NCBI GenBank assembly: GCA_033065855.1
Contig: JAVXUO010002027.1
Location: 1-64,000 of the forward strand
DNA: 64,000 bases
Direction of reading: 5' to 3'
Source of the DNA: Escallonia rubra
Lineage: Eukaryota > Streptophyta > Magnoliopsida > Escalloniales > Escalloniaceae
Part shown: piece after piece, positions 9,609 through 53,297 of the stretch
Layout of the letters: every line of letters begins with the position of its first letter
Position numbering within the stretch: the stretch's first letter is position 1
Position numbers and translations under genes: made by a program
Notes under the pieces: generated by a model
Database searches by the model: none
Seen by the model: the letters and a program-made list of their open reading frames with translations, nothing else
Told to the model about the DNA's origin: nothing

Positions 9609-9713
9609 CTTCCCATCGACCAACTTAACCAGAAAATGAAAAACACAAGCTTAAAAACAAGGTGATACGAAAATTTTCTAATAAGCAAATTCAGTGAGCA
9701 GTCTACTCTTATT

Positions 9714-10058
9714 TTAAACCAGTTTGACACCAGTTGCTACTAAAGAATCAACTACTGCTTTAACTTTACCATGATATCTCTGTTCTCTCTTCAAGGAAAC
9801 AGAAACCGCAGGGATATCTCTAACCAGCAAACGCTCTCCGAGAATCTTCCCAATCTTTGCTGCAGCAGCAGAGTCACCAGTACTTTGCATGTTCGACCTC
9901 AAAGCCTTCTCTTGTGAGCTTGCAGCAGAGGCTATTGTTGCGGTTGGTTCATGGATTACTTGGGCACTTACATATTTGTTTGAGAAATGCATCTTCAAGA
10001 CATACGGTTTAAGAACTTTGGTAATTCTTCCCGGCTTGAGTGGTGGAAGAATAACCAT
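9714..10058 (-). CDS. L18p/L5e-family ribosomal protein, mitochondrial type (114 aa)
   Basis: The frame encodes MVILPPLKPGRITKVLKPYV followed by LKMHFSNKYVSAQVIHEPTA, then EKALR, AAAKIGKILGERLL, REQRYHGKVKAVVDSL and the end GVKLV. This is the compact plant L18 family lacking long extensions, best matched in memory by Arabidopsis At5g27820. Bacterial L18 binds 5S rRNA in the large subunit; the plant homologue is expected in an organelle ribosome, probably mitochondrial. I start at the second Met because family members begin MVI(L/P)PP and because the bases just before it read TTTTTCAAGACAG, a good splice acceptor. The 28 upstream codons therefore look like intron, giving a 5' untranslated-region intron. 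The coding part is a single exon. A duplicated block follows the stop. Confidence 0.9.
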   Translation of the reverse strand: MVILPPLKPGRITKVLKPYVLKMHFSNKYVSAQVIHEPTATIASAASSQEKALRSNMQSTGDSAAAAKIGKILGERLLVRDIPAVSVSLKREQRYHGKVKAVVDSLVATGVKLV

Positions 10059-10799
10059 TTCTGTCTTGAAAAATATCAATAAAGACGTTGGAATTGGATT
10101 AGTAAAAAGAACATAAAAGAATTTATAGCTCAATGGAACCAACAGAACATATCATATAGAGATGCGGAAAAAGTATTCCGAAAAAAGGGTACTTATTATA
10201 TTCAAAAGTTCAGGTAAGAAGTTTGTACGATAACCAAATTGGAGCTAGATGTATATTCCATGTAAGAGAGCCAAAAATTTAACTCAAGATAAAAATGTTG
10301 CAAGAGATCAGCCTATTTCTCAATCTATAGGACTTCTGGAATCACATAATGCCTCTTGGATGTGGGATAACAGACTCCAGGGCTCAATTAACCTATATTC
10401 CTGCAAATTTCTTTTCCCTTTCGGATTTGAGCATTATTACATGAAAAATTAACAAATAGTGCAGCCTTCGAAAGGGGCATCCCAACAATTCCAACCAGAG
10501 CCATACCAAGAATGTCCTGCCAATTAGACAACTAATTGGCATCCAAGACGCTCATCAGGACCAAGGGAAATAACTATTCTCACATCAAATCAAATAAATA
10601 GAGCCTCCTCAAATTCAGTCTCAATTGCATACCTCAAGGCAACCAACCCAGAGTTATAATATGGCCACGCAATTGAACGCATTTAGCTTACAGAAGCCAG
10701 CCTTTAATAGCAAGCTTAAATACGTGATTAGGACCAACCGATTCAACCATATGCCATTTGGGCCCCCTTCCCCTAACGATCTGCAAGGCACATTTCGCG
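10059..10799 (-). other. probable 5' untranslated region and intron of the L18 gene
   Basis: No coding signal is seen on either strand. The likely acceptor at 10061-10062 implies an upstream donor, but I could not choose it with confidence. The first exon may lie beyond the LINE fragment, around 11450-11650, so that the LINE would sit inside the leader intron. That placement is inference. Confidence 0.4.
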
Positions 10800-11441
10800 G
10801 TGCATCTACTATCAGGTAAAGAATCCATATCCTTTTTTAACAAGTAAACTATATTCAAAGCTGACAAGGGCACCGGTGAACCCAAGAAGCCCATAATACT
10901 AGAAGAAGCTGAAATCTATCTTACCAGCTATACAACTACTAAAGCTGTCCAAAAGTTCCAAAAGCATATCAAATTATACTCGGACCACAAAAAAAAATTT
11001 GTTTAGGTCAGACACTGCACACTCTTTCGCTTCAAACACCCTACTAATTGTTTCGCGCCACACACACCATAAAATACACAAAGGAGTAACATACCAAAGA
11101 ACAGTCTTCCATCTCTTCCTTTTATAAAGGGAACAGCTCTGAAACAAAGCCACAACCCACTTGGGCATGACCCAAGACACCAAAAAGGGAAATGACCAGG
11201 TCCCAAATAAGCTTTGCCACCCTGCAATGCAGCAGAAGACGATCCACGCTCTCCCCGTCTGATTTATTCAGATGCCCCTACTTGCCGACGGACCCCCCTA
11301 ATCACTTTGTACGTGAATCCTATGGCACTATCGCAGGTTGTCCCCTGTGAGTGCTGTATTCAGCATTGCTTCCCAAGCAAAGAAACTCACCTTCAGTGGG
11401 GCCGTGGTACGCCAAACAGCCGTCCAGAGGCTGAACATTAA
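10800..11441 (-). mobile_element. LINE (plant L1) 3' fragment with zf-RVT region
   Basis: Minus-strand pieces read PLKVSFFAWEAMLNTALTGD, then ESVDRLLLHCRVAKLIWDLV and, in another frame, KRKRWKTVLWYVTPLCILW followed by ISRVFEA. These are the conserved zinc-binding end of plant L1 reverse transcriptase polyproteins (VKVSFFAWEA, ESVDHLLLHC, LCLFWTIWKERN). At least two frameshifts and a stop break the frame. It is 5'-truncated, as LINE copies usually are, and lies upstream of the L18 gene in the same orientation. The 3' limit is approximate. Confidence 0.8.
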
Positions 11442-12527
11442 GAAGAAGAATACATACCTCTGAACCTTAACAAGAAGAATTAGGTTCAAGTGCTAGCAGA
11501 GTAGATCAATGATTTCCATGTCCCAACTGAAATCATAAACAATAGTCGAGACACGAATGCTGCCCCAACGCGCTCCGATGCTGGTACTTCGACCAATTTG
11601 GTGCACCTGTACTTCGTAGCTCCTTGATATAACGCTCAAACTATTGACACTTCTAACCTTAACAGAATACATAAACCATCCTCAATTTCTCTTCAGAAGC
11701 GTTCTTCATTACCATATGTTCTCTCTAGACTTTGTGTCATTTGAAAAGCGAGGCAATGTTCTCTGTAGAACCAATTCTTTTAAGATTTATATCTCAGATT
11801 GAAAATTAATTGGAATTCAATTCGTTCTTTTTGTCTGGAAAAAGGAAAAATCACATAATTCCTAACTATGGAATTGATTCCTTCAGGAATTGGATTTAGA
11901 ATTCAGCTTATTTTCTTTTGTTTGGAACACAGGGGATCTCAAATCACATACTTCCTATTTTGTGTTTGAATAACAGAGGAAATGAAAATGTTATTAATTT
12001 TTAGACAATCATATCATCAGCTTATGGTGGAAAAACAAACCACGGTAAGTAGTTTCACGTGTGCTATTTGCAAGACATGGTGGTGGTGGTGGTGGTGGTA
12101 GCACATGGTGGTGTGCCAACTCTATTCTTTTCCTTGCATACCTTTCAGAGATCCCTTAATGCCTTATTTATTTTTCACGATTTTGCCACGTCCATGTGTT
12201 CATCTTTACCTTGCTCTTTTCCTCTCTATTTTGCCTCCACACAACAAGAGCTTCTTTTACTCCCTTTCTCAAGGGTCGTATATTAAATTTTGTTGCCGTA
12301 CAGTACAGTTGATGGAAACTCACGTCAGAACCATCTCACATGGAAGCAATGTACTATACTGTATTGCTTTCTATACAAGTGTAAGGATAGTATTGACATT
12401 TTTAAGATATACATTGATGACTTCAGCAAAAAAGTACACTTTTTTAAGGGGTCAACGACGATGGACATGACTGATACCCTTTCAAAGTTATTGGTGACGA
12501 TTTGTTACGTTTTGAAACTTAGTATTC
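11442..12527. other. intergenic DNA, no gene seen
   Basis: May include the first untranslated exon and promoter of the L18 gene on the minus strand. A (GGT)n tract lies at 12077-12099. The plus-strand frames across 12059-12670 run through AT and simple repeats and show no motif. Confidence 0.35.
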
Positions 12528-12535
12528 TTGACTGT

Positions 12536-12666
12536 CTAAGTAGCACAGACACGGACACCATGTTCAACACCGACCGGGACACCGGACACCCCAATTTCCA
12601 AAAAATCAGATTTTGGACACCGCAGGACACCGCAGATTTTTTATATATATATATATATAACCGCTG

Positions 12667-15388: not shown

Positions 15389-16119
15389 AAGTGTGATGCC
15401 AAGGAAAGTGGGTTCGTACTTACGTGGAGGTGCCACAAAGGCTGCAGTCCGTGTCAGCTTCCAAGTATGCAAAGTGAGAGACAGCAAGGGTGGAACAAGG
15501 GCAGAGACCAAGGGCTTCCCAGACAGAGCTTGAGGGTGGCAGTGCTGCGAGGGCGATAGCGCGGGATGAATATACGACGACAGTCACAGTCCGATGCTTA
15601 GGTCCAAAGTCAGGGTCTTGTATGTTTCTCTCTCTAGGATTCTAGAGTGAGAAAGTGAAATATGTTCTGAAAATGTCCAACTGTTCATCCTAATGAATTC
15701 TCAAGACCTCTATTTATAGAGATTGAGATGATGATGTCATTAACCGACACGTGGCGCTCCCCGGGAGTGACACGTCACCAGGGGGTCCACGAGTGCCGGT
15801 GCTCCATGGACTGTCAGATCGCATATTCAACCGGCCTGCTCCTCACAGCGTCGCTCTGTCTGTCTGGAAAGACTGGCTCCCACCGCATCGGTGTGGCCAG
15901 AGAACCCCCTTGATCTAGCCTCCAATCCAAGCCCTTGCGGAGTCCCACAGGCCTGGCAGCGGTGGGGAAGACCCGACGCCCAACTGCCAGGTGAACTAGG
16001 CGCGATGCCCTCCGAAGACCTGCTCCCGTCTCGAAGTGACCCGGGGGTCATAGTCCCTAGGGGTGCCGACGCAAGCCCCCAGTGCCGGAGCACGTAGGCC
16101 AGTCACGCAGGCACCCTGA

Positions 16120-16940
16120 CGGAGATAGTGTCCCGGAGGAGTCGTCTATTCCGCAGGCCAAGGTAGCATCCCGGAGGAGCCGTCTACCCGGCCGGCCAAG
16201 GTAGCATCCCGGAGGAGCCGTCTACCTGGCGGAAGGGGAGTTGAAGAGCTCCCTGGCAGAGATAGTGTCCCGGAGGAGTCGCCTATCCCTGCGGGTGAGT
16301 CCTTATGCCGGAGCACTCGGAGCATGTCAAGGTAGCATCCCGGAGGAGCCGTCTACCCGACTGGCCGAGGTAGCATCCCGGAGGAGCCGTCTACCTGGCG
16401 GAAGGGGAGTTGAAGAGCTCCCTGGCAGAGATAGTGTCCCGGAGGAGTCGCCTATCCCCGCGGGTGAGTCCTTATGCCGGAGCACTCGGAGCATGTCAAG
16501 GTAGCATCCCGGAGGAGCCGTCTACCCGACTGGCCGAGGTAGCATCCCGGAGGAGCCGTCTACCTGGCGGAAGGGGAGTTGAAGAGCTCCCTGGCAGAGA
16601 TAGTGTCCCGGAGGAGTCGCCTATCCCCGCGGGTGAGTCCTTATGCCGGAGCACTCGGAGCATGTCAAGGTAGCATCCCGGAGGAGCCGTCTACCCGACT
16701 GGCCGAGGTAGCATCCCGGAGGAGCCGTCTACCTGGCGGAAGGGGAGTTGAAGAGCTCCCTGGCAGAGATAGTGTCCCGGAGGAGTCGCCTATCCCCGCG
16801 GGTGAGTCCTTGTGCCGGAGCACTCGGAGCATGTCAAGGTAGCATCCCGGAGGAGCCGTCTACCTGGCGGAAGGGGAGTTGAAGAGCTCCCTGGCAGAGA
16901 TAGTGTCCCGGAGGAGTCGCCTATCCCCGCGGATGATGTA
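16120..16940. repeat. 169 bp tandem array inside solo LTR copy A
   Basis: The unit contains AGATAGTGTCCCGGAGGAGT and two copies of AGGTAGCATCCCGGAGGAGC. Starts at about 16258, 16427, 16596 and 16765 are exactly 169 bases apart, followed by a shortened unit of about 133 bases. The core GCATCCCGGAGGAGCCGTCT also repeats within each unit. Several neighbouring copies are almost identical, so the array has been homogenised recently relative to the LTR. Confidence 0.95.
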
Positions 16941-17404
16941 CACTCCGGAGAGTGGGTTGAAGCATGTTCCATGACCAAGGCAAGGTGCGCATGGTGTGAT
17001 GAATGAGTGTGGTGCCCGGGGGCATGATGATATGATTGTGGCGCATGGGCGCGATGAAGTGAGTAAGGTGCCAGGAGCACGTCTATGTCAATGGCGCGGC
17101 GCATGGGCGCGACGGAGTGCGTAAGGTGCCGGGGGCATGCTTGTGTCAATGGTGGCGCATGGGCGCGACAGAGTGTGTAAGGTGCCGGGGGCACGTTGGT
17201 GTCAATGGTGGCGCATGGGCGCGACAAAGTGCTTATGGTGCCGGGGGCACGGTAGTGTGACAGAGAGCCTGGAGGCACGGCTGTATCAGCGGCGCGGCGC
17301 ACGGGCGCGGCGGAGTGTTGGAGTGTGACGCCCGGACGTCGGTGACGGGGGTCACGGAGACGACGTCCGGGCGACGGATGATGAGCGTCGTGGAGTTGTG
17401 TCTG

Positions 17405-18037: not shown

Positions 18038-19089
18038 TTAATAAAATTGAAATTTTTAAATGGTTGATTGTCACCACTAAAAAATGAGCTAACATGTTTG
18101 ATAAACCAAACACAATGTCTGAAAATTGTTCCATTTTAACAGAAATATTCACGCAGTATAATTTCTTATTGGCAAAATTGTGTTAGATGTGATAGTTGCG
18201 AAAAAGGTGTTGTTATAATGGTGGTAGTGGTGCGTGAAGATGTGATGTTGGTAATTATTATGGTAATGGCAGAGGCGACATGACGACCATGGTGGCGGTC
18301 GTAGTGTGGTGAAAATGGAGATAGTTTTGGCAAATGTGGAGTTGGTGGTGGCGGTGTCCTTGTGGTGGCGATTGCTATGGTGTTGGTGGTGGCCCTAGTG
18401 GTAGTCTTGGCGACGGCTAAGTCGTGGTAATTATGGTGGTGGCAACAAAAGGGAGATGGGTCTAGTATGCTGAGATGGTGTTGCCAGCAAATTTGTTGTG
18501 GTCGCATCATGGTGATAATTGTTCATTTTATATAAAATTGTATTCAATAACTTTGGACCATCTCACTTAAAATTAAGTGATAAGAACTAAGTAACCTCAT
18601 CATTAGTTATAATTTTGAACTATGTTTGTCGATAATTTATGTTTTAAGTGATACATGGTCCAAGGCCATCAAATGTACTTAGTTAAAAATTATTGAAGTT
18701 TTTTTATTTTAAGTATTCAATTGCGTTACCGAACACACCATATGTAGAATGTTTTTGTATTTTTGAAAAGTAGGGTTGTATCTGCTCGTTGGGAAGGGTG
18801 TGGGGGGGGGGGGGGGGGGGGGTTGTTGGAGATGGCAAGGGAGGTGGGGTAATAAATAGCAAAGGATAAATTTTGACAGCTAAACAAATCGTACATAGAG
18901 AGATAAATACAACCATTCACATAGCTATAATGTCACTAAATTGGTGGAATTGTTGTTAACACTTTTAAAGAAAAACCTTAACCGTATTATATTAATATCG
19001 CTAAAACAAAATAATTAAAATTTAGTGATCGTTAATTATCATTATATAAGATTAAGCTTATTCGACAAAGTTAAAAAAAAGTTTTAATA
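18038..19089. other. intergenic DNA with GGT-rich block and poly-G run
   Basis: 18190-18510 is rich in GGTGG and GTGATG motifs on the plus strand, like the CCACC-rich interiors of the transposon-like segments near 37 and 55 kb. A G21 run lies at 18802-18822. From about 18925 to 19070 a piece resembling the Mutator-type MITE occurs (TTAGTGATCGTTAATTATC). No gene is seen. Confidence 0.4.
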
Positions 19090-19610
19090 AGCAAGTCTCC
19101 TAAAGATGGACAATCGTATCTACCTAGGAACTCCAACCCAGTTGGCCCAAAACAACACACGACTTTTGAATTCAAACTAAACCGCACGCTCGGCTCATCA
19201 CCACTCCTTTTGCTGCTGCTGCTGCTGCTGCTTCTTCTTCTGAATCAGCAGCTTGGCGTCCAACACGCAACACAAACGTGAATCTCTTACACTGTACTGC
19301 CTCCTGGTGCTGCCTCTCTCTCTCTCTCTCTCTGCGCTACACAAACCAGTTTTCCAACAATGCCGAAAGGCTAAGAAATCATTTCACTGCCATCAGTTCC
19401 CTTGGTCAAAAGTCATAAGCATTCAACGAGGGATTGAGACTTTTGAGCTCTGGGCATTTAGTGAAGTGAAGGGCCTCACCTCATCACTCGTAATTATTTA
19501 CCTCTCTTTTAACCTCCTTGGGTTAAACTGGTGATCGTACATGTGATCATTTTTAGCTAACATGAGGATAAGGACTACATGCTTGCCCATAAATGCAGCA
19601 ACAACCTCCT
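19090..19610. promoter_or_regulatory. duplicated upstream block of MIR164 copy 1
   Basis: This block matches 24208-24740 in order: AAGATGG(A)CAATC...ATCTACCTAGG, GTCCAACACGCAAC, AAACGTG with CTTACACTG, AAAAGTCAT and GAGACTTTTGAGCT with TGGGCATT. It lies about 1.3-1.9 kb upstream of the microRNA. Retention in both copies while intervening sequence has diverged suggests constraint. A role as upstream control region is inferred. Confidence 0.6.
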
Positions 19611-20599
19611 TCTAGAGAACTTATCGTTTTCTGTTTCAGTAGCTTTCTTCAAAACTTCAAATTCACCGACCCATCTTATTTAAATCCAACCTGCTCCTTT
19701 TTATCCGATTCAATAAAGGTCAATCCATTTACTTTTTAAATTCCATTTGTTTAAAATAGTTTCATTTTTTAAAAGAAATTTTTTTTCTTCGTTGCGGTTG
19801 GCAACGGAGGTGGCTGCAAGAGTTGGATGGCGGCAGTGGCTGCTAGAATTGGCCGAAGTGAATGTCAGGAGCTGTCAAAGTTCACCGGAGGCGGTAACTG
19901 TCAGAATTGGATTGTTGTGGTTGGCGGTGGTAACTGCCAGTGATGACTTCAGAAGTTGTCGGAGGCAAGTGGTGATAAGCGAAGACTGTCAACTGTTGGC
20001 TTGTTTGAGCTGTGTGAGAGAGCGTGAAAGGAAGAAAACACATGCATATGAGCTAATTAGGTTTTGGCAAGATATTTGTGTTAAGTTGGAGATGGAAAAA
20101 ATTAAAAGGCTGCCGCAATTAGATCTTCGTTCGTTCCAAGTCATTTAGGACTTTCCAGAATAACTATCATGTGAGCGGGACACATTGGGGCTCGAATTAG
20201 GCTTTCAAGTTGCCAACCCATTTTGTAGGGACTATATGTGCATGATAACACATATTTTCAATGGAAAAAAGGTTAAAGAAATAGACAACTTGTTAGTTTA
20301 TTTTTTGGTTTTAAGCTGAAGGTGTCCAAAACTCATCAATCCAACTACATTTTATTATTAGGGATAATAATACAGTACATGACAATATGACCTCCACACG
20401 TTCTTTGAAAGAAGAAAAATGTAATCAAATCTTAAGTTGAGATGTGTGGTGTTATGCCTAAGCAAAACTAAGCCCACAAGCATAAACTGAACACCCTGGT
20501 CGTTGGGCCCACAGTTAGATGGCTCACACTTGATTGGTGAGTCGTTGGCTACGCGTTGTAAACAGAAGTATCTCTCACTGATCTTCTTCTGTTCTTCAT
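19611..20599. other. interval upstream of MIR164 copy 1, no gene seen
   Basis: A 133-codon plus-strand frame at 19747-20148 runs through GGT- and GTGGC-rich sequence of the type seen inside nearby transposons, and has no recognisable domain. Nothing else is visible. Confidence 0.4.
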
Positions 20600-20851
20600 A
20601 TCAGCATCAACTTATTTCTGGAAAACTTTGCTAATTCTCACTTTGAGTGGCGGGATTACAGAGAAATTACCACAACTTTGCCTTGCTGCAAAAACCATTT
20701 CGTCCCTTTGTTCATCAATGGTTTTCAAATCATCATTATGATGTCTACTTGATTGCTTCACCCATGGTCTCTCTAGCTCTTTAAAGAATGCCCACTCCAA
20801 GACTCCATCGCTTTATGAACTCACTTTCTCACCACTCTTCTCCATCTCTCG

Positions 20852-20860
20852 CTATAAATA
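20852..20860 (+). promoter_or_regulatory. TATA box of MIR164 copy 1
   Basis: CTATAAATA lies about 100 bases before the mature sequence, in a stretch (TTAAAGAATGCCCACTCCAA, CTCTCTAGCTC) that is also present before copy 2. The predicted start of the primary transcript is near 20885. Confidence 0.75.
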
Positions 20861-20944
20861 CACGGACACAGCCTTCTTCTTACCTTGCCATCCCTGTCTG
20901 AATTATGTCCGACAAGGGCGTATGCAATCGAATGGTTTCTAATG

Positions 20945-21075
20945 GGTGAGGTTCTCTTGTTGGAGAAGCAGGGCACGTGCAAAGCAAACTGACCTAGCTC
21001 AGCTATCAATGCTGGTGCAACGATGCGTGAGCTCTGCATATGCACGCGCTCCCCTTCTCCAACATGCGTTCCTCG
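20945..21075 (+). ncRNA. MIR164: MIR164 microRNA precursor, copy 1
   Basis: The mature miR164 lies at 20961-20981, starts TGGAGAAGCAGGGCACGT and ends GCA. It is the standard 21 nt plant sequence. The star strand at 21043-21063 reads CACGCGCTCCCC then TTCTCCAAC, and pairs with the mature arm leaving 2 nt 3' overhangs; the loop is about 60 nt. miR164 guides cleavage of mRNAs for NAC-domain factors of the CUC/NAM and ORE1 type, setting organ boundaries and ageing. The star has C where copy 2 has T, leaving an extra mismatch opposite mature position 15. A TATA box stands at a suitable distance. Copy 2 lies 4.8 kb downstream on the same strand. Confidence 0.95.
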
Positions 21076-22419
21076 TTCCTCTCGTCTCGACCAATGCATC
21101 GATCCTTGTACAGCTGACCATACCATGCTAGCGTGGGTTTGCAGTCTGGTAAGGTAAAACACTGTATCGGGCAAGTCTCTTTTACCCTCACAATCGCACA
21201 CTAGCACATTACTCATTAGTCAGAAACCTCTTTACTGGTGTTATGGCGTTAAGGGAATGCCCTGTGCCGATTTTAGCATGTTTTTTGAGTTGGAAACTGA
21301 GTCGAATATGTTCCATGTGAGGTTCGATTCTTTATATTTACATACTGATTCAGCAGAGTATCCCTCGTATAGTGCAGGGAAAGTTTGGGTGAGAAACGAC
21401 AGCTGGGCGAGAAAGGATTTACCATCTGATAATTGTAGGTGGTCCATGCCAACTCAAGGCTCCAAATGTGGTGGGAGCTAGCCTGGGTTTTCAACTTAAG
21501 AAGGGGTTACTCTGCAATCAAGAAGTATTTGGCTATTTTCTCAGTCGCGTTCGTACATATGTTTCTAAGACTTGTGCAATCCAAGGAACATTCCTGCCCT
21601 TTATCTGAAGTAATTATAAGTTTGACATATTCTCTTTCGGACTTCCGTACGTTTACTATGTTCGTTTTCTGTTTTGCAGTGATGATAATTTTTTTTTTTG
21701 GTATATTTTTATCATTTTCTATATTCGTTTTGAATGGTATTTTCAGTTTTTTTTTTCACTCAAACTTAACTCAATGTCAGAAAAAGTAACTGAATTTTTT
21801 TTGACGAAAAGGATAAAATTACATAAGCGTATTTTCTAACTGAATACGAAAATTATGAAAATAAAAACACAATATGAAAACGAATATGATAAACATACGG
21901 GCAATTTTCGATACACCCAGTAAAAATAGTTACTTCAAAAATTACACGAGGTGCGAGAAAAATAAACGACCAAACCCAGGCAATAAGTGATATTTGACCC
22001 AAACTGATATCCATATAGCAAAATAAAATACCATGGTAACTTGGCTTTAATACTCAATTTTGGTCAACTGCACAATTTTCTCTCTCACTCCATGTCACGG
22101 TTACATCATTCTAATTAATACGGAGTATCATTATTTGGTGAACCAGAGAAAGGAGGGCCTCATATACGATTGTGTTTATGTTCGGTGTCCTGTTCGGGGG
22201 AGTGGGGAGCTTTGTTTATGATTTTTTTCACACCTGCTTAATATATGAAATCCTTAAACAAATATAAAAAAAAACCTTAAAGAATAATCAGCTCCTTAAG
22301 AAAGACATAGATAGCAAGGGTTGATTGTAATACTATCTCAAGCTACTAGCTTTCAAATGAAGTAAAAGAACTTACTGCAAATAGGGTCTGAGAAAGAAGT
22401 TACAATTCTCTATATACTC
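21076..22419. other. downstream part of MIR164 copy 1 primary transcript and intergenic DNA
   Basis: The first few hundred bases are presumably within the primary transcript. The rest is AT-rich, with no supportable gene. A Stowaway-like remnant, TAATACGGAGTA, is at about 22117. Confidence 0.4.
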
Positions 22420-22695
22420 ATACTAGTGGTCGCAGTATGATTACATCGCTAAATAAATATTGTTAACATATATCAAGATTTTTAAAAATGTCAAAGATCG
22501 TATTAACAGCTATTAATTATCGCTATATGCAAAATCTTATGTATAGTAACAATTAATAGTCGTTAAATGTTTCAAGCGACTTTAACACTTGTAACAATTA
22601 TTAGCAGCATTTCGTCACTAAATAAAAGCCACTAGAAACATTTAGAGACAATTGACAAAGTAAAATTATCGCTATATGCGATCAGATTATTGCAA
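22420..22695. mobile_element. Mutator-type foldback MITE, degenerate copy
   Basis: TATAGTAACAATTAATAGTC at about 22550 with GTTAAATGTTTCAAGCGACT is mirrored by AGCCACTAGAAACATTTAG and the later TAAAATTATCGCTATATG. The arrangement matches the copies at 27 and 37 kb, but the ends are eroded and no target duplication was found. Confidence 0.5.
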
Positions 22696-23036
22696 CCAAA
22701 ATCTAAAAATTAGTTGCTCATACTTGTATGATATTTCCAAATGTACAAGACTGAAAAAGTTATTCGTAAAGAAATGTGGATTTAAGATTTAAACAGTGAC
22801 ATTACGTAAAAAGTTCTCTGTACTTGAAAACCCATAAGAACGAACATGTATAAAACCCGAATCCTTCTTAAAAAAGAAACTAGATTTGGACGGATGGACG
22901 GCTAGATCTAGTAGACAACTTAACTGAAATTATGCGAACAATAGATCGGCTCCTCACTTGTATAATCTTTCCAAAATTATTTATAAAGAAATGTGGATTT
23001 AAGATTTACAACAGTGATGATATAAAAAGTTCTCTG

Positions 23037-23037
<1 letters not shown>

Positions 23038-23074
<37 letters not shown>
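23038..23074. repeat. (TA)n microsatellite
   Basis: About 18 TA dinucleotides in a row, just before the conserved block at 23121. Confidence 0.95.
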
Positions 23075-23075
<1 letters not shown>

Positions 23076-23120
23076 CCCGCCCTCCTTAAAAAGTGCCGAC
23101 TCCATGGATACAGAGTATAG

Positions 23121-23540
23121 ACATCTCTGTTCATCAGTGCGTGTCTTGGTCCCGGCAAATCCAAAACGTTACGTGCGTGTAATACGGGCTACGGAGTATA
23201 TAAGCAAAAGCGAACGAACTGTCCCGTTTGGATGGAAGTACATAAATGGGTGCCAAGCTAGCCAGCCTAGCGAGCTAGGATGGCGTAAGAAGTCGGACTG
23301 GATTTGGCATTTGGCAGTCAAAAGAGGAAGCTTTACAAGCAACTGCACTCTCGGGTTTTGCCTTAGAAAGTGGGCGACTTTTGCTATTTTAGCTTTGCTT
23401 GTTGTTGGAAATTGAGATGAAGGCAAAACGGGAAGTGACTGACAAGGGGTAGAGATTGACCTCCCCAGATAGGAACCTTAAGTTGCAAGCAATGTCGTAA
23501 ACACTAATATATGACAGCACATGGAAATACAAGCAAAGGA
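23121..23540. promoter_or_regulatory. duplicated downstream block with TATATAAG, unit 1
   Basis: Strongly similar to 30325-30705. Shared strings in order include CCAAAAC(G/A)TTACGTGCG, GTAATACGGGCTA, TATATAAG, TGATGGCGTAAGAA-like, TTTTGCCTTAGAAAGTGGG and GCAAGCAATG(T/G)CGTAAACAC. TATATAAG at 23197-23204 reads as a good TATA box on the plus strand, following an ACGTG core. No shared open frame and no hairpin was found. It may be a distal control element of the MIR164 gene or the promoter of a separate non-coding transcript; both are inference. Confidence 0.6.
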
Positions 23541-24207
23541 TCCTATAAATTTTGAATCTCGACAGTTTGGGAGTGACATAAAAACAGCACAGATATTCCT
23601 AAAACACCGTTTTGTCGCTATTAGTGTCTTTCGTTGCAAAAATTTCGATTACCCATATCCTTTTTTATAGCAGAAGGCAAAGTTCGTTTGTCATGTTAAA
23701 TATAATAAAAGACAATCACTTCCATAAATCAGGTATCGACTCTCACTTTTTTTCCCTCTATTTGGAAGAATATTTGACTCATGAGTATTGAAATTCGAAT
23801 TTAAGACCTTGAGGTTATTTATCAAGACCTGGGAGTTGCATCTCACTTAAAGTGCAACGGAGCACAATCTCTAGCATGATTTGTTTATTTAGTAGGCGGA
23901 TGCACTTGTGTAGTTGGAACGGATTATCACTTTAACTCCAAAAGCTTTGGTAACTAGACCCTTGTGATCGTAGCGGGAGGATCTCACTAGAGATGATGCT
24001 GGTCGTAAATGGATCGGAATTGAATTTTTGTTGCTAATTAATACAGTAAATCACTAAAGATGAGGTTGTCCTAAATAAAAATTGAACATTAGTCGTCATA
24101 TAACAACAAATCATCATATGTATAGCCCGAGATGGTTGCTTTTGGTGGCAAACAATATATATTCTTCACTCCACTGCTCTCAATTTGGGAGGTGGGCTGG
24201 AGTAAAA
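23541..24207. other. intergenic DNA between duplication units, no gene seen
   Basis: AT-rich sequence without coding or repeat features that I can support. Confidence 0.35.
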
Positions 24208-24740
24208 GCAAAGCAAAGTCTGCCAAAGATGGAGAATCATATCTACCTAGGGACTCTCCCTGTTCTCCCAAAAACCAACATCAGCTCATCACCACTCACT
24301 CCCCTTCTATCTTCCTCTTCTTAATCAACACCTTTCCGTCCAACACGCAACCCAAACGTGCATTTCTTACACTGATCTGGGTATCTGCTACTGCTGCTCT
24401 CTGTCTCCTCACCTTTCCTCATCCTCTCTCTGCTTCACAATCTACTTATTTCCCCCCATGCCAAAACCAAAAAGTCTCACCATCAATTCACTTACGTCAA
24501 AAGTCATGAATGAGCATTTGATGAGTTTGCGGGATAATTATGATATACTTACAACCACAACCAGCCAGCCGAGACTTTTAAGCTTTGGGCATTGAATGAA
24601 GGCTTTCCTTGTGGGAATTTGATGAATGGCTTTATCGTATGGGTTGCTATTTACCTCTCGTTTTAACTTTCTTTGGTTAGTTTGGTTATGATTGAACCTG
24701 ATTTAGATGAATTGAGGATGACGACTGCACTGCCAACAGC
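24208..24740. promoter_or_regulatory. duplicated upstream block of MIR164 copy 2
   Basis: Counterpart of 19090-19610, with the same ordered strings (AAGATGGAGAATC, ATCTACCTAGGGAC, GTCCAACACGCAACCCAAAC, CTTACACTGAT, GAGACTTTTAAGCTTTGGGC). It lies 1.1-1.6 kb upstream of the second microRNA. Confidence 0.6.
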
Positions 24741-25620
24741 CCAACTTTAGTTGTGCTCTAGCTTGTTGCACAGGGTTTGTTACCTTGTTTAAAGTCTTAC
24801 AACGTGTACATTGGTGCGCGTGGCACCAAAAGCTAAATGTAAATATGATGTAAGAGTTTCTCCAATGTTATTAAAAATTAAAATTATGATTTTGTACAAG
24901 TATTCTCAATCACAATGATAATGTAAAAAATGACAGTAAACGTACATGTAACCTTTTAGTGAAGATCTTCAACTTCAAGTAGATAGTCTGACTGAATCAC
25001 TGTAAAGAAATTTTTGAAGATAAAATACTGCAGCTTAACCATCAATAGGAACGATAAATTGCACAAAAAATGTTTAGGGACAATGAGAAATGTTTGGAGA
25101 TCCATCTTTGTTGAGTTCAATCAAATTTAGTTTAATTGCACGACAGAATCTAGTTTTTTCTTAATCTATGCCCAATTTGGTAAAAACCAACTGTTAAGAT
25201 CCAGTCTTCGAGAAGTTGATTGCTGGGGATAAGATGTAAAGTTGAAGTCAATTTGTAATGTCCAAACGTAATAAGCTAGCCAGCCCGCTTCTCTTCTATC
25301 CCGCGTAACAAGCACGTAAGACGCAGAAGCCTTTCTTCTCTGCGACTAGTCGCCACGCATGGCCGAGAGAACGTGAACATCCAACAGCATCATCATGCTG
25401 GTTTCTCAAAGATTTCTTATGTTTTCTGCTTTTTGAATCTTCCCCCCCCCCCCCCCCTCTCTCTCTGTGTTTATCTCTCTCTCTCTTCGTGTCAATCCAA
25501 TCTTTTCCATCATGTATATTGAAGAATGGCATAGGCAAACACACGGCAAATTAAGCTTTTCTATCCACAGGGGGAAGGCATAATTTGGTGTCTGAAATCA
25601 GTCAATTTGATGTCTGCTAC
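24741..25620. other. interval upstream of MIR164 copy 2 core promoter
   Basis: AT-rich DNA with a C16 run followed by (CT)n at 25442-25466 on the plus strand. No gene seen. Confidence 0.4.
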
Positions 25621-25707
25621 CATCACCACCATGGTCTCTTTAAAGAATGCCCACTTCAAGACTCCATCTCTTTCAACTCTTTGCCTCTTTCTTCTCCCCG
25701 TCTCCCT

Positions 25708-25717
25708 CTATAAAATA
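25708..25717 (+). promoter_or_regulatory. TATA box of MIR164 copy 2
   Basis: CTATAAAATA sits about 90 bases before the mature sequence and follows TTAAAGAATGCCCACTTCAA, which is shared with copy 1. The predicted transcript start is near 25745. Confidence 0.75.
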
Positions 25718-25789
25718 CAAGTGAGCTTCTTCTTTCCTTGTTGCCAACAGATCTTTTTCACAGTGAAACGTGGTCAGCTATGGTTCATT

Positions 25790-25892
25790 GGGTGGGTAGC
25801 TCTTGCTGGAGAAGCAGGGCACGTGCAAAGTCCTCTCTGCATGGATCCACTCTGCACGTGCTCCCCTTCTCCAACATGGATTGCTCACTCCT
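25790..25892 (+). ncRNA. MIR164: MIR164 microRNA precursor, copy 2
   Basis: Mature miR164 at 25807-25827 is identical to copy 1. The star strand at 25855-25875 reads CACGTGCTCCCC then TTCTCCAAC, the standard miR164 star, with 2 nt 3' overhangs. The loop is only about 27 nt, shorter than in copy 1, and the duplex has one mismatch fewer. Targets are the NAC genes of the CUC/NAM and ORE1 groups. The core promoter and an upstream block are shared with copy 1, so the pair arose by tandem segmental duplication. A (CT)n tract follows at about 25951-25968. Confidence 0.96.
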
Positions 25893-26998
25893 TATTTCTT
25901 CTCCGATCCATCATGCATTCTTATCAGCACTGCAGAACCAAGCAGGCCCTCTCTCTCTCTCTCTCTCCTTCTCACACACGCATTCACACTTGGAAAGCTT
26001 TCTTGTGGACGACAGGCTACTAATTGTTCTTTCTGTGTAAGTTGTTCCAAGAGAGTTTCAATAAATTTCAACTTGCTATAGTGGTATAACACAGGATTCT
26101 CCAGTTTTGCAGGGGAAGAAGTATGGGTCTACATCTATATGCATCTGATACCTACTGTTTAAAGGACAGTTTGGAGTCAGGACCATGTGTTCATGTACAT
26201 CTGCCACCTCTCTTGGCTGCCCCAGAGCTTTCAGCTGGTCCACCCAAATCAAGACCCCTGCCATTTGCGTGGAAGCTTTATTTTTCTTTTCATTTTTTTA
26301 CTACTTTTGTCGTTCTGTTGTTTTTTTATTTGATTTGCAAATTTTCAAGATTAGATTTAGTGCGGGTACTGTAATCATTGCTTTTTTTTTATTTTTTATT
26401 GTAATTTTTTAAACTTTATATAATACGGAGTACTTATTTAAACGTTTGCATGTTTCTATTTTATGCTTATTTACTAAATCTATTCTAAGAAAATATACTT
26501 TAAATGACTTTAAACTGTTATTTGACTTCAAAATTCAAATCAACGTTTTATCATGAAAGAGCATCTAAGGTAATTGATATTTTCAATTTACTTCTTAAAT
26601 TTATACACTTTACTTTTTTTTTTTTGTGTGCTGAATATAGGAAAAAAGAACCGCTACTTCACAAGCATATCATTTCAAGAGCACATCAAAGTTTACCTTC
26701 CCTATTATTTTTTTTTCCTGGCTCACCTAAAAGACGACTAAGACCCGATATACGTATTGATTGATCGTGATATTAAAACTCATACATGAAATTCCATGAC
26801 AATCTAAAAAAGAAGAAAATTTGCGCTTTCTCTCTTTGCAATTAGTGGTTTTATTGGAACTTACATAATTGCTATTGACACTTCATATACTCTACACTAT
26901 TTGTATGTATAATTGTTTAATGTATTCTTACATAACAATTTGGAGAGTGCCATTAATTATTGTTGAAGTTCCAAAACTACCCTTTGCATTTGTCCTAT
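25893..26998. other. downstream part of MIR164 copy 2 transcript and intergenic DNA
   Basis: Likely includes the 3' part of the primary microRNA transcript. From about 26280 the sequence is very AT-rich, with a Stowaway-like AATACGGAGTACTTATT at about 26420. No protein gene is supportable. Confidence 0.4.
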
Positions 26999-27007
26999 TA
27001 ACAAATA

Positions 27008-27248
27008 GGAAAATTTTTGGCTGCTACCTTGGTTGAAGAAATTTTTCTTACCTTTTATATAGCGACAATCAATCATCTCTAAATGTTTCTAGTGACTTTT
27101 ATTTATTGAAACTAAAAAAATGCTGCTAATAATTATCGCTGAAAATGTTAGAAAAAAGCCACTGGAAACATTTGACAACTATTAATTGTCACTATACACG
27201 AGATTGGAGGAAGATTCCTACAACTCAGATACGAGCCAAAGTTTGTTC
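27008..27248. mobile_element. Mutator-type foldback MITE with perfect 9 bp TSD
   Basis: The element begins GGAAAATTTTTGGCTGCTAC and ends GAGCCAAAGTTTGTTC, inverted with respect to each other. TAACAAATA is present exactly on both sides (26999-27007 and 27249-27257). A 9 bp duplication is the mark of the Mutator superfamily. The two halves are inverted almost throughout (TATAGCGACAATCAATC against TTAATTGTCACTATA), so it folds on itself. It is 241 bp and non-coding. Confidence 0.85.
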
Positions 27249-27257
27249 TAACAAATA

Positions 27258-28551
27258 TTATCTTCTTATGCAATTCTCCTTTTAATTATGTTTCAAGATG
27301 TGGAAGCAGCCTTGAGATGAAGATCGTCTTTGCCATTATTAAATTTAAAAGTAAATTTCATCACGTTGGTTCCTTAAAGATTTCTTCTTCTTCTTCTTCT
27401 TCTTCTTTCTTCTTTTGAGTGAAGAGTTGAAATATATATCAAGATTAACGAAAAAAATAAAAATCATGCTGAGATAGACAAGTAAAAGATATACGGATGA
27501 TATTCTCATCCGATAGAAATTACAATAAAATAAAAGTCTAAAACAAACTGAAAAATAAAACATAGAAAACCTACAAACAAATAAGCCTAAAACAAATAAA
27601 TCTACAATCAGATAAGTTAGATTTTATTTTTTTTAAATGTAGATACATTAACTAACTAAATACAAAATAAATATCTACAAAACATGATAACTATTAACTA
27701 AAAACAAGATAAATACTAAAAAATCAGCCAATCAAATTAGACCAGCATTCTGTCCACTCCAACCCAAACTCCAGACACGTGTCCCTGTAATCCTGACACG
27801 TGTCTCCGCCGTTGTAACCTGTCCTCGATCTCCGTGCACCATTCCGGCGCCGGAAATGCCACATTTTTCGACCATCATCCTACTGCTTGACTCAAGAGGG
27901 CGCCATAACAAACTCAAACGAGAGCCCTTCAAACCATCAGAAGCATCGAAATCATCAGATAAATTCCATTGGACCAACCAAGTTCCCAGCAGGACCACCA
28001 TCAACCACCGACCCAAACATCGTGACCCATCAGCTGCCAAACCATCCTAACACAAAACAAGTGGTGCATCCTCACCACTTTCAATTTGCATTCAACAAAC
28101 CTTTCTAGAGCAAGGGGGAAAGGGGACAAAAAACACCTTGAAGTAATAACCTTAACCTAGACTCATCAAAGCTTCTTCGATCCATCGCAGCGCGACATCC
28201 ACAAGACCCAATCGACAAAATTTAACTTCATATGAAACCCACTACCCTGACGACAAATCTAATCTTCATCCAAAGCCCACCCCACCCCACCCCAACCCAA
28301 TCCTGAAGCACCCCAAAACCCCGACAGCTTAACCCCTCTTCAATTTTCAATCAAACTCTGGTGCCCAAAAATGCGAAAAAAACTCACCAGATCGATTGTA
28401 AAGCCCTCATGACAGCAAAGCTGTCCAGCTCACTGTAGCCCCCAAGATCCCCCACTAAAAGTAATAAACAACGATCTAAGCTACCACGTCACCGCCCGCC
28501 AGGAAAATCGACGCTGGTGACGGAAACAGAGGTATGAAAGTGAGAGGTTTG
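27258..28551. other. intergenic DNA with (CTT)n tract; possible old LINE 5' region on minus strand
   Basis: (CTT)n at 27382-27411. Between 27730 and 28550 the sequence is less AT-rich and a 102-codon minus-strand frame is open at 27732-28040. The block continues beyond the hAT insertion at 28560-29320 into CTCTTAGAGAGAGG. I recognise no domain. A degraded non-LTR retrotransposon 5' region is a guess. Confidence 0.25.
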
Positions 28552-28559
28552 GTAGAGAA

Positions 28560-29320
28560 CAGTGGCGGAGCCAGAAAAATTGTTTGAAGTGGGCATTAAA
28601 AAAAATGAAAATATTCAACAATCAATTAACTGCAAGAATACAAAGCAAAATCGGGTTGTATTACAATACTTAGTAAAAGTAATGCGTTTTTTCCTAATAA
28701 ACGCATAGAACTTTGAACTGGAAACAAAACAAATAAACATTTAGTACAGTGGACAAAAATATAAAAAAGGGTCAATTTACGGAATCAACAAATCCGTAAC
28801 TTCCAAAAATTTAACCTTAAATCTACCAAAATTTTGAAAAAAAAAACAGAGTACTTATTGTAAAAAAAAATGATGTGAATCGATAAAGAATTTTTACCAA
28901 TTAAACTTCGCTTTTTAACACTTGAAGCTTCCGTGCAAGAGAGAGGAAAGATATAATTGGGGGTAATGAAGCAGTGAGGAGACTTTTTCCTTATTAAGAA
29001 GATGGAGAAACTAAGGAGGAGGAAATCGAGGAGAAAGAACCGGAAGCCATCAATCTGCAGAAGAGGCAAGGACAGTGGTTAGACCCACATGCTCTTCCTC
29101 TATGTACTTATTCCTTTAATAGTCATTCTCTCCTTTTGTGTCCTATGATGAAATGACCAAATAGAGGCCACTTTAATTTGCTGAAGTCATATATTCATAG
29201 GGCACATTCGTCCATATAAGCTACGTACATAATATACACATAAGCTACATAACAGGAAGAGGACAGCAGGAGGGCAGGTGGGCACGTGCCCTCCTGTGAC
29301 CCCCACTACCTCCGCCACTG
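28560..29320. mobile_element. hAT-type non-autonomous element with perfect 8 bp TSD
   Basis: The ends are CAGTGGCGGAGCCAG on the left and CAGTGGCGGAGGTAG read inwards from the right. GTAGAGAA occurs on both sides (28552-28559 and 29321-29328). This length and the CAGTGGCGGA terminus fit the hAT superfamily. It is 761 bp. A 94-codon frame on the minus strand (28785-29069) is AT-rich and has no transposase motif. The perfect duplication suggests a fairly young insertion. Confidence 0.9.
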
Positions 29321-29558
29321 GTAGAGAAGGGATATCGTTGTTTTTAGCCCCTCTTAGAGAGAGGTTATGTGCTAACTTTTTGCAAAAGACTGCTAGAATG
29401 CAAAATTAAGACATGCAAACCAAACTGAAGCTCAGATAGAGAAAGATTTATTCTTTAATTTCATCACTTATGTTGCAAAGTAACCCTCACGATACTATTT
29501 GCTCTGGATAACGAAGACCCTCAAACTAACCAAAATTCCGAGCCTAGGGTGTTATTCC

Positions 29559-29919
29559 TGTTGCTGCAAAAAACATGCTTTGCGTACATTGCGGAACCCG
29601 AGCCTAGACCGATGACCTGCAAGACAAAAAACGAGTAACCGCCGGGTGGGGTTCCCGGCGGAGAACTCTCCGATACTTAAGTCAGAGCGCAGCTACAGAA
29701 TAGTAACTCTGAAAAAGCATGAATTGTCTAATTGTCCTTATACCTGAGAGTAGACCCCTTTATATAGCTGTAGGAGGAGAGTCCTAGTAGGATTGAGTCA
29801 TATGTCAGATGTGTTAGGATCGCGTTAGGATCCTCGAGAATCACGTCACAAGATAATTATCGATCTCCCAATTTGACTGGGATTGCCGGGTATTCACCAA
29901 TTTATTAGGAGTTATATCA
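29559..29919 (-). mobile_element. short solo LTR (361 bp) with perfect 5 bp TSD
   Basis: Read on the minus strand it starts TGATATAACTCC and ends TTTGCAGCAACA. ATTCC flanks both ends (29554-29558 and 29920-29924). A TATA box (CTATATAAA, minus) is at 29759-29767, followed by a GC-richer leader with CCCCACCCGGCGG. The length suits a Ty1/copia or short Ty3/gypsy LTR. No internal region remains, so it is a solo-LTR fossil. The intact duplication points to moderate age. Confidence 0.85.
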
Positions 29920-30324
29920 ATTCCTATCATTTATGCTCGACATCTTGAACACCAATATTGAATCATGCACCGTTTAACCATGACTAAACAAGATCAATTG
30001 GAACAACTACCAACACGCCCACTGTCCCATTCGGGTGAGATCTTCTTCTCCTTTTCCTTTAGAACTAAAACCATGGAACACAAGCTTGGCTTACTTGTAT
30101 TAGGACGGGAGAGGACAGCTAACCTTTTTAAGATTTCAACTATTGAGTCCACCCATGTAGAGCACATGTAATTCATTAAACATAGTAAATAATATGTGAT
30201 GAATCATCGCGTTTATGGTCACTTGTACTTAAATCTGCCAGTTAAGCAATTGAACACCATCCAAATCCTATCAAAATATTCAAAAAATTACAGTGGTATC
30301 ACAGCTAACCGTAAAACATAGGGA

Positions 30325-30705
30325 TCCTTCTCTGTGTCTTTGGTCCTAGGAATTCCAAAACATTACGTGCGCGTAATACGGGCTAAGGAATATATAAGAA
30401 GCGCACAGGGTTTGGACTTTGGAGCAGTCCCGTTTGGGGAAAAAAATGTAGACTGGGTGGCTAGGACAGTGATGGCGTAAGAACTTGAACTAGACTTGGC
30501 AGTCAACAGGGAAATGGTTTTACTCCCACAGTAAACTGTACTTTGGGGTTTGCCTTAGAAAGTGGGGGCTTTTGCAGCATGCATCTGCCCCATGGGGCCA
30601 TTCGGCCTTGCTTTTTGTTCGAGATTGCAGAAATGGAGGGGACTTATATTGCAAGCAATGGCGTAAACACGAACATGACAGCAAATGGAGGGGCAAGGAA
30701 AAGGA
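30325..30705. promoter_or_regulatory. duplicated downstream block with TATATAAG, unit 2
   Basis: Counterpart of 23121-23540. TATATAAG is at 30391-30398, after CATTACGTGCGCGTAATACG. Also shared are GATGGCGTAAGAAC, TTTGCCTTAGAAAGTGGGG and GCAAGCAATGGCGTAAACAC. It lies about 4.5 kb after MIR164 copy 2; the unit 1 block lies 2.1 kb after copy 1, the difference being made up largely by inserted elements (27008-27248, 28560-29320, 29559-29919) and other sequence. Confidence 0.6.
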
Positions 30706-33948: not shown

Positions 33949-35310
33949 TCAGGTGTCGATGACTTCGGGTACTGCCACTGGATATCTATTGATCCTGTCT
34001 GACCACGCATTCAGACCGTCTGGTTTGGGATTCGATATGCATCTCCAAACAGCAGAATTGCACTTAAACCCGCTCCCGAATGCCAGCTGCCAAACTCTGT
34101 CTCCCCTTTTCACTCTTCCCTTCGCCTCTAGATAGCAAAGTGAATACCAAACTGATGAAGCCGAGGTGTTTCCGAACCTATAGAGGGTCATTTTCGATGC
34201 TTCGACGTCCCTGTCTGTCAACTTCAGCTTATCTTTGATACTGTCAATCACTGCTCTTCCGCCTGCATGAATGCAGAAATGCTCAAAAGCCTTCTTGAAA
34301 TTTGGTATATAAGGTCCCCTTTTCCTTGCAGGAGCCCAAATTTTTCTCCAGCCCACTGATAAAACATAGTTGATTTGCTCTGAGTAGGGCAGAACCAGTG
34401 ATCCTAGTGAAGCCAGATTTATTTTTAGTGCTTCTCCTGCTACTTGTAGGATCGTTCTGGATAATGCTATCCCTGTGTATCCCTCGTCATCAAGATCCTG
34501 TATAACACACTTGTAAGCCCCAGTATTAAACCCAAGATGAGTTCGCACAATGTGTTGGAGTTCGTATTTCGCATTTACTCTGTCCCGTTTTCGGTTAGAT
34601 AGTACAATCCCCGCTCCTCCCACTCGAAACAAGCAGTTGGCCAGGATCATAGATTTGAGTTGTCCTTCGTAAACATTAGAACATATGGGCTCCATGCTAA
34701 GAACCAGAGCTAAGGAATTCTTATGCACTTTGAGGAGGTCCCGAGCTAAGCTAATAGACAGTATTCCCGCGCTGCAACCCATGCCAGTGAGGTTGAAGCT
34801 CTTGACATTGCTTCTGAATCCAAACTTGTTGACGACCATTGCTGATAAAGAGGGAGTACGGCTGACGAGGCTGCAGTTTATGATGAGTATATCAATGCTT
34901 CTCGGGTTTATGTTGTGCTTGGTCAATAGAGCTTGGACTATTGAGAAAAGCACTGTTTCGATTTCGTTTGTAGTCGAACTGAAGGGATTCTCGGATGGAA
35001 GTAAATGAAACCCTGAAGGTACGTGGGTTTCATTTCCAATTGCGGATCTTTCAGCGACTTTCCTTTGAAACTCTATGAAGTTCCTGTTAAACTTGCCCAT
35101 GATTTCTGAGTGCTCTATGAAGGTTGAAATAGGAACCCGTTGATGATCAGGTCCACGGTAGCAGATGAAGTCGAGGAGGTAAACATGGTTTGCTTTATGT
35201 AATAGGTAAATTGCTGCTAGGGTGAGAGTAATGGCTGCAAGAAACTTGAAATCGTTAAGTAAGACTAAGATCTCGGTAAGACTAATCTGATCAAACATGA
35301 AGCTCTCCAT
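33949..35310 (-). CDS. KCS: 3-ketoacyl-CoA synthase (KCS), single exon, 453 aa
   Basis: KCS enzymes sit in the endoplasmic reticulum membrane and condense malonyl-CoA with a long-chain acyl-CoA, the rate- and chain-length-setting step of very-long-chain fatty acid elongation for waxes, sphingolipids and suberin. The protein has one clear N-terminal hydrophobic segment at about residues 20-48, then the FAE1/thiolase-like fold. The catalytic Cys is 179 in TGMGCSAG, the His is 348 in EHFCIHAGGRAVID and the Asn is 381 in RFGNTSASS. NCLFRVGGAG (225-234) and AFGSGFKCNSAVW (410-422) are family motifs. The length is at the short end for KCS and the end RYPVAVPEV fits the KCS7/KCS21-like branch (tentative). 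Tyr377 stands where FAE1 has a conserved His. No intron is needed and the frame is intact. Confidence 0.94.
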   Translation of the reverse strand: MESFMFDQISLTEILVLLNDFKFLAAITLTLAAIYLLHKANHVYLLDFICYRGPDHQRVPISTFIEHSEIMGKFNRNFIEFQRKVAERSAIGNETHVPSGFHLLPSENPFSSTTNEIETVLFSIVQALLTKHNINPRSIDILIINCSLVSRTPSLSAMVVNKFGFRSNVKSFNLTGMGCSAGILSISLARDLLKVHKNSLALVLSMEPICSNVYEGQLKSMILANCLFRVGGAGIVLSNRKRDRVNAKYELQHIVRTHLGFNTGAYKCVIQDLDDEGYTGIALSRTILQVAGEALKINLASLGSLVLPYSEQINYVLSVGWRKIWAPARKRGPYIPNFKKAFEHFCIHAGGRAVIDSIKDKLKLTDRDVEASKMTLYRFGNTSASSVWYSLCYLEAKGRVKRGDRVWQLAFGSGFKCNSAVWRCISNPKPDGLNAWSDRINRYPVAVPEVIDT

Positions 35311-35352
35311 TTTCTTACAGCAGGCTGCAGCATTTGCTTTGCCATTGAGTCC

Positions 35353-35363
35353 ATATTTATATA
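35353..35363 (-). promoter_or_regulatory. TATA box of the KCS gene
   Basis: Read on the minus strand the bases are TATATAAATAT, about 45-55 nt upstream of the ATG. This implies a very short untranslated leader. Confidence 0.7.
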
Positions 35364-36314
35364 CTGATTCTGGTTGGCCTTAAGCCATGAAGGAGTGCCT
35401 TTCTTTTTTACAGCCCAACTGTCGGAGGGTTAAAAGGCTCATGCAAAAGATATGGATCACCAAACCCCTGCTCAAACCCCTTAAAACGAATATATGTGTT
35501 CACGGAGAATTGTAGGCTTATTAATGATTAAGGATGTATCAAACTACTAACTTACGTCTATCATTATAATTTTTTCTTGTACATCTACCAGTAAGGCCTG
35601 TTTGAGGAACCTCTTAACCCTGCAGTATCTCACTTTTGCCTATGGTAAAAATGACTCCATGTTCGAACAAACGAAGACTTTGGAAAGACTTGTCGACATC
35701 TCCATACAAGCTATGCCTGCAATGGTGCATTAACCCGGTAAGAGTTCGTCCTAAAGAAAAAGGCACAGAACAAAATCAATTCCATCAGATCATGTACTGG
35801 GCTGTGCAACCTGGAGTAATCACTGAGAAGGCACTGATGGTTTAGAAGAGCCTGTCATTCGGTTGAGGAATACAAAAACGCGCTTCGCTTGAACAAGATA
35901 TTCCCCAAAATCTACACTGGTTAATGGTGTTCCATCCCAAAGATATAACTAAACTTAAGAGTTTTGATGCAGCAATAAATAATACTCTGTATGTGAAATA
36001 TATGTGTATGGTTTTTGAAGAAATAGTAAATGAAAGAAGAAAAAAGAATATTTTTGGAGAGAATAATGTCTTGTTTCTTTTTCTTCTGTTTTCTTTTATA
36101 TTCAGACTTCTGACTTTTCTTATAACATTTTTTTATTTTTAAGGTACAGAAAAAACATAATGGCGAGATATTAGGCATATATGGAGAAAATTAGGAGAAA
36201 AAGTGGGTACTTAAAACTATCACTAACCCATGATTTAGAAGACTTAGTCAAAAAAAAATTCACTTTAATTAGGACATAACTAATCTTATTTTATAATTTA
36301 ACAGAAAGGACTTG
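35364..36314. other. KCS upstream region, no gene seen
   Basis: Holds the rest of the KCS promoter and AT-rich intergenic DNA. Short frames at 35636-35845 and 35921-36178 show no motif. Confidence 0.4.
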
Positions 36315-53227: not shown

Positions 53228-53297
53228 TTAGAGTGGCTGGAGTTGGTACTACTGATGCGCCACAACTTTCATCAACACCCTTCATCTATCCGAAGCC

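Follow-up and report, generated by a model that had tools for sequence, protein, structure and literature searches.

Do the two miR164 hairpins found close together in the genome of Escallonia rubra derive from a local duplication, and are both likely to work as genes of their own? The window analyzed is a stretch of 64,000 nt (contig JAVXUO010002027.1, positions 1 to 64,000, forward strand; assembly GCA_033065855.1). A first-pass annotation of this DNA had described a tandem segmental duplication with two miR164 hairpins of identical mature sequence, 4.8 kb apart on one strand, each with its own TATA box and with matching sequence further up- and downstream. All of these elements were recovered. 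As judged from sequence comparison, the locus is a tandem segmental duplication that carries two predicted MIR164 genes, with promoter-side and distal sequences retained in both units (Table 1).

For the hairpins, the window was searched with a 19-nt canonical miR164 sequence. Two exact matches lie on the plus strand, at 20961-20979 (copy A) and 25807-25825 (copy B), with 4,846 nt from the first to the second. With up to three mismatches allowed, the search returned three matches, the third being the microRNA star (miRNA*) arm of copy B; three or more matches occurred in none of 100 shuffles. The mature 21-nt miR164 occupies the 5' arm in both hairpins and is the same at 21 of 21 positions, and the star arms agree at 20 of 21. 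The loops are unequal in length and align poorly (MAFFT). Plant miRNAs are characterized by a stem-loop precursor with few miRNA/miRNA* mismatches and no asymmetric bulge, which is what both copies have: unpaired miRNA positions number three in copy A (9, 10, and 15) and two in copy B (9 and 10), without an asymmetric bulge. The folding of both hairpins, on which the earlier interpretation depended, is also well supported. The minimum free energy is -60.9 kcal/mol for copy A (20941-21080; z -5.20) and -51.5 kcal/mol for copy B (25787-25892; z -6.02), and none of 200 shuffles was as stable in either case.

The likeness between the two units extends beyond the hairpins, which was the other point on which that interpretation hinged. 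Comparison of 18-24 kb with 24-32 kb by blastn gave 11 matches, of which one is inverted and the other ten are in plus orientation. The inverted match and one plus-strand match lie inside a high-copy element resembling a miniature inverted-repeat transposable element (MITE) and were omitted. The remaining nine islands are collinear, on the same strand, and 71-88% identical; two are the hairpin arms and seven lie beyond them. Their starts in units A/B are 19089/24211, 19231/24311, 19436/24571, 20777/25636, 20943/25789, 21041/25853, 23141/30334, 23279/30471, and 23477/30643, and a narrower search added a tenth island of about 32 nt (19495/24648). The ranges compared in the first-pass annotation (19.0-23.6 and 24.1-30.8 kb) are indeed homologous, with limits nearer to 19089-23525 for unit A and 24211-30689 for unit B. 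Of unit A (4437 bases) and unit B (6479 bases), the nine islands make up 603 and 595 bases, respectively, and the bulk of the sequence between them does not align. Identity between the distal upstream blocks is 79-87% by blastn and 71.7% over the region by MAFFT, and that between the downstream blocks, which lie 2-5 kb downstream of the hairpins (a range covering both units), is 71-86%. In control comparisons, chains of at least four islands were found in none of 81 other window pairs, and chains of at least two in none of 100 first-order Markov nulls; the observed chain in this test had ten islands, one MITE match included. Two of the 81 control pairs had a higher total score, which came from one long repeat common to 15-17 and 47-49 kb.

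Two further candidates from these comparisons were set aside. A transposon-borne origin of the likeness was rejected, as the repeat matches belong to the MITE-like element (27000-27260 in unit B, with a relative at 22533-22655 in unit A mainly in the opposite orientation) that was left out of the islands. A pair of inverted NAC-like half-sites occurs at corresponding positions of the two downstream blocks (TTACGTG/CGTGTAA and TTACGTG/CGCGTAA). Such sites would fit CUC feedback and are not claimed here; with seven half-sites in 12 kb, their number is by a rough estimate not much higher than chance.

The blocks were also searched against the 566-Mb assembly that contains the window, using six queries (upstream, promoter plus hairpin, and downstream for each unit). 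All six matched themselves and their partner, and the other matches were limited to two of 31 nt in repeat tracts. These were returned by the unit A upstream query, along with itself and two of three partner islands; the unit B upstream query returned itself and unit A. The downstream and the promoter-hairpin queries, in both directions, gave self and partner only, and the latter did not report other MIR164 loci. Nothing as similar to the blocks as the partner was found elsewhere among the best candidates, which are the ones this search scores, such that weak relatives could be missed. The return of the partner and of nothing comparable in reciprocal searches indicates a local duplication. The pair thus shows the features of a tandem duplication: adjacency, the same orientation, homologous flanks, and, within the limited sensitivity of the search, no such repeat elsewhere.

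As for the TATA boxes, the distance from TATA word to miRNA is 108 nt in copy A and 98 nt in copy B. The two promoter blocks are 75% identical, including an ungapped run of 38 nt at 95%. The presence of such a block just upstream of each hairpin favors separate transcription over a single 5-kb transcript.

Table 1. Positions of the duplicated MIR164 units and of other features in the window.
Feature	Position	Strand	Evidence
Unit A distal upstream block	19089-19466	+	islands 19089-19152, 19231-19326, 19436-19466
Unit A promoter block, TATA word at 20853	20777-20887	+	alignment to unit B
MIR164 copy A hairpin, longer loop	20943-21080	+	fold, RF00647
Mature miR164, copy A	20961-20981	+	exact 19-nt match, 21-mer same as copy B
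miR164*, copy A	21041-21061	+	one base unlike copy B
Unit A downstream block	23141-23525	+	islands 23141-23204, 23279-23384, 23477-23525
Unit B distal upstream block	24211-24601	+	alignment to unit A, genome search
Unit B promoter block, TATA word at 25709	25636-25740	+	alignment to unit A, genome search
MIR164 copy B hairpin, short loop	25789-25892	+	fold, RF00647
Mature miR164, copy B	25807-25827	+	exact 19-nt match
miR164*, copy B	25853-25873	+	one base unlike copy A
High-copy MITE-like repeat, inserted in unit B, outside duplication	27000-27260	.	73 matches, best 40 of 3047 candidates scored
hAT-like insertion, unit B	28560-29320	.	11-bp terminal inverted repeats, 8-bp target duplication GTAGAGAA
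Unit B downstream block	30334-30689	+	alignment to unit A, genome search
Mitochondrial uL18 (uL18m) gene	9714-10085	-	PF00861 E 7.3e-12; At5g27820 E 5.5e-46 (searches run on 9714-10151)
3-ketoacyl-CoA synthase	33949-35379	-	
Annexin piece	53256-53822		

The contrast between islands and background bears on the age and fate of the copies. Because the bulk of the inter-island sequence is unalignable, the local duplication is probably old. The identity of the miRNA arm and near-identity of the star arm, next to diverged loops, suggest constraint on both copies, and the distinctness of the islands from their unalignable background points to selection. The distal blocks may therefore be viewed as candidate regulatory sequences. 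The greater downstream length of unit B is explained in part by the MITE-like insertion and by the insertion at 28560-29320, which we presume from its terminal repeats and target duplication to be of the hAT class.

The neighborhood of the pair provides some information on its ancestry. By convention, Arabidopsis loci are numbered in their order along the chromosome. The uL18m gene, 11 kb from the MIR164 pair, has as its best solved match Arabidopsis At5g27820, which a table in PMC6953067 lists as uL18m. Arabidopsis MIR164C (EEP1) is At5g27807 (PMC5608315). The closeness of these two numbers, together with uL18m near the pair, suggests a MIR164C-type locus. The likeness is one of locus number, and Arabidopsis MIR164C is one gene, in contrast to the tandem pair here.

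For other MIR164 loci, a genome search with a one-mismatch miR164 pattern gave 11 matches, compared with one for the reversed pattern. Among the nine outside the window, four fold as hairpins, four encode a NAC-like target peptide, and one (C1940) is ambiguous. The MIR164-like hairpins are on four other contigs (C1345:324369; C2125:70997, with a variant miRNA; C1176:861797; and C1870:117464), a count that is a lower bound. A genome search with the Rfam model RF00647 (best 63 of 60540 candidates scored; matches below the cut-off also in two of 14 control genomes) did not list C1345 and gave weak matches at C1176 and C1870 (E 0.04), which were assigned by miRNA and fold. Precursor alignment identity is 0.78 between copies A and B, 0.67 between either copy and C2125, and 0.52-0.59 to C1345, C1176, and C1870, such that C2125 is the nearest other MIR164 to the pair. 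From the short loop that C2125 shares with copy B, the long loop in copy A may represent a derived state, though the loops of C1176, C1870, and C1345 are long as well. Homology of the unit flanks to these loci was sought in 10-kb stretches by blastn and discarded: C2125 matches at the hairpin only and C1345 at the miRNA only, C1176 and C1870 have no hairpin match to the units, and C1870 has one 151-nt match at window 18211-18351, outside the unit. Separately, C1176:861797 and C1870:117464, on different contigs, are 92% alike across roughly 0.8 kb, have a miRNA ending GGGCACATGCT, and constitute another MIR164 pair, perhaps the product of a whole-genome duplication.

Putative NAC genes with miR164 target-like sites are also present in the genome. 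Four opposite-sense pattern matches (C1371, C917, C933, and C2628) correspond, when reverse-complemented, to NAC-like coding sequence with the peptide HVPCFS or similar. The match to the target site is exact over 17 nt at C1371 and has one mismatch at C917 and C933. At these three loci, NAM-domain exons (158 matches in the genome search, best 150 of 179 candidates scored) lie on the target strand about 0.3-1.5 kb from the site; exon and peptide are tied by proximity, and reading frames are listed at C1371 alone. Near the target-like site at C2628 is a NAM piece interrupted by stops. The ambiguous site (locus L028 on C1940, reverse complement, about 4771-5007) is miR164-like, lies in a broken NAC-like frame with stops, and overlaps the edge of a MITE-like copy of the same family as in both MIR164 units.

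Taken together, we consider it likely that a MIR164C-type locus was duplicated head to tail long ago with its hairpin, TATA promoter, and flanks, and that both copies still work with partly shared expression. Under this account, the inter-island sequence would have diverged beyond alignment and been entered by transposons, with the hairpin arms, promoter, and distal blocks kept twice. Each copy would be transcribed from its own promoter, and the plant miRNA machinery would cut both precursors to the same miR164, which would feed one pool that cleaves NAC/CUC-type mRNAs. The expression of the two copies may be partly shared and partly diverged.

Several findings weigh against this account. The MIR164C ancestry draws on one neighboring gene and on Arabidopsis locus numbers, and a 72% relative of uL18m is on C2624, a contig without a match in either MIR164 search; a 6-kb stretch of that contig aligns with the window over the coding part of uL18m alone. 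A 200-nt query with the copy A hairpin failed to report copy B, which reflects the limited sensitivity of the DNA search. Gene conversion could also keep the hairpin arms alike. In local blastn comparisons with C2125, the copy B hairpin aligns over its full length (77%, 103 nt) and that of copy A around the miRNA only (93%, 28 nt). Relative to copy B, copy A shows an additional mismatch in the duplex (miRNA position 15), a weaker and largely open lower stem, and a longer loop. With RF00647, for which the gathering score is 64, copy A scores 36.4 bits on the plus strand and 56.5 on the minus strand, both below the cut-off, and copy B scores 45.8 on the plus strand and 68.2 on the antisense strand. 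These features of copy A would be expected if the duplication were real and copy A were decaying, with one copy, probably B, at work. The arms of copy A, however, have stayed nearly identical to those of copy B amid mostly unalignable sequence, its three unpaired positions create no asymmetric bulge, and its promoter block is kept, and we regard such decay as improbable.

Transcription of both hairpins as one long polycistronic primary transcript would suit their shared strand, as same-strand tandem miRNAs are reported as more likely to be co-transcribed (PMC3327684). Nevertheless, the spacing of 4.8 kb far exceeds the <200 nt of two confirmed polycistronic maize clusters (PMC2773440), a TATA promoter block immediately precedes each hairpin, and the word AATAAA occurs seven times at 21080-25600, though this is weak evidence in AT-rich DNA; a polycistron is thus very unlikely. 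The pair might also be an assembly artefact, in which two haplotypes of one locus were joined head to tail. The assembly does hold overlapping contigs: the end of C2538, which carries a 98% relative of uL18m, repeats window 9189-12556 at 99.6%. Compared with that value, the units are 71-88% alike in the islands and mostly unalignable elsewhere, and the window contains no N, which makes an artefact hardly credible.

The RF00647 scores also concern the model itself. Its matches in the window are at 20959-21063 and 25805-25875. The antisense score exceeds the sense score at all three loci with both strands listed (copies A and B and C2125), the antisense strand alone is among the matches listed for C1176 and C1870, and the consensus has the reverse complement of miR164 on its 3' arm. 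RF00647 appears to be built on the wrong strand of MIR164, and this choice may misorient MIR164 annotations.

Tandem duplication is a frequent source of miRNA gene families in plants (51 of them in four species; PMC3327684). The pair represents a rather common type of gene duplication. Families reported as tandem or clustered include miR156, 159, 166, 167, 168, 169, 395, 396, and 399, along with some lineage-specific families. Comparable cases in other families are soybean miR159/169/395, Eutrema MIR168a and MIR399a, and tomato miR156/159/395/399. Maize miR156b/c and miR166k/m are likewise local same-family duplications (PMC2773440); unlike these two compact, polycistronic clusters, the pair here has a promoter block for each copy. 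Reported MIR164 gene numbers are six in date palm, twelve in soybean, and four each in tomato and Eutrema. In the excerpts available, miR164 is outside the four tandem families of soybean and the clustered families of tomato (PMC9569937), and the MIR164 pairs of date palm are on paralogous contigs, unlike the local pair here. No tandem MIR164 pair is described in the available excerpts of the literature on MIR164 tandem and family evolution, among the matches listed (e.g., best 20 of 265 and best 20 of 227). One may be contained in the tandem list of PMC3327684 or be represented by the fourth miR164 of Eutrema, which is mentioned in a section on tandem miRNAs (PMC3604812).

Through CUC/NAC genes, the dose and place of miR164 are reported to contribute to the control of organ boundaries, petal number, and carpel fusion. 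Given that extra petals are described for an Arabidopsis MIR164C mutant (PMC5608315) and that specialized roles are reported for tomato MIR164a and b (PMC9569937), a divided expression pattern of the two copies is plausible by analogy. A stronger version, in which an ancient MIR164C pair divided the function of a single gene, would have distal blocks with their own changes in each unit, two separately controlled genes running boundary and petal-number control, and surviving distal islands that act as enhancers of the locus; we put this forward tentatively and consider it rather unlikely as a whole. Conserved regulatory sequence at a Brassica MIR164 locus was identified by phylogenetic shadowing (cited in PMC8824567). 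Those non-coding blocks are conserved between species, whereas the blocks here are conserved between two copies in one genome. A tandem pair with a diverged background may serve as an internal phylogenetic footprint, with the surviving islands as candidate MIR164 control elements, and as a natural experiment that sets dose against divided expression.

Two other repeats were observed in the window. Copies at 15474-17000 and 47833-49080, 32 kb apart and mostly 87-93% identical, each contain 169-bp tandem units, and the repeat resembles a mobile element with a minisatellite inside it. Finally, an inverted repeat (44780-44976/45757-45953) has 197-nt arms that are 96% complementary and separated by 780 nt, and these arms overlap the ends of two open reading frames without a Pfam match.

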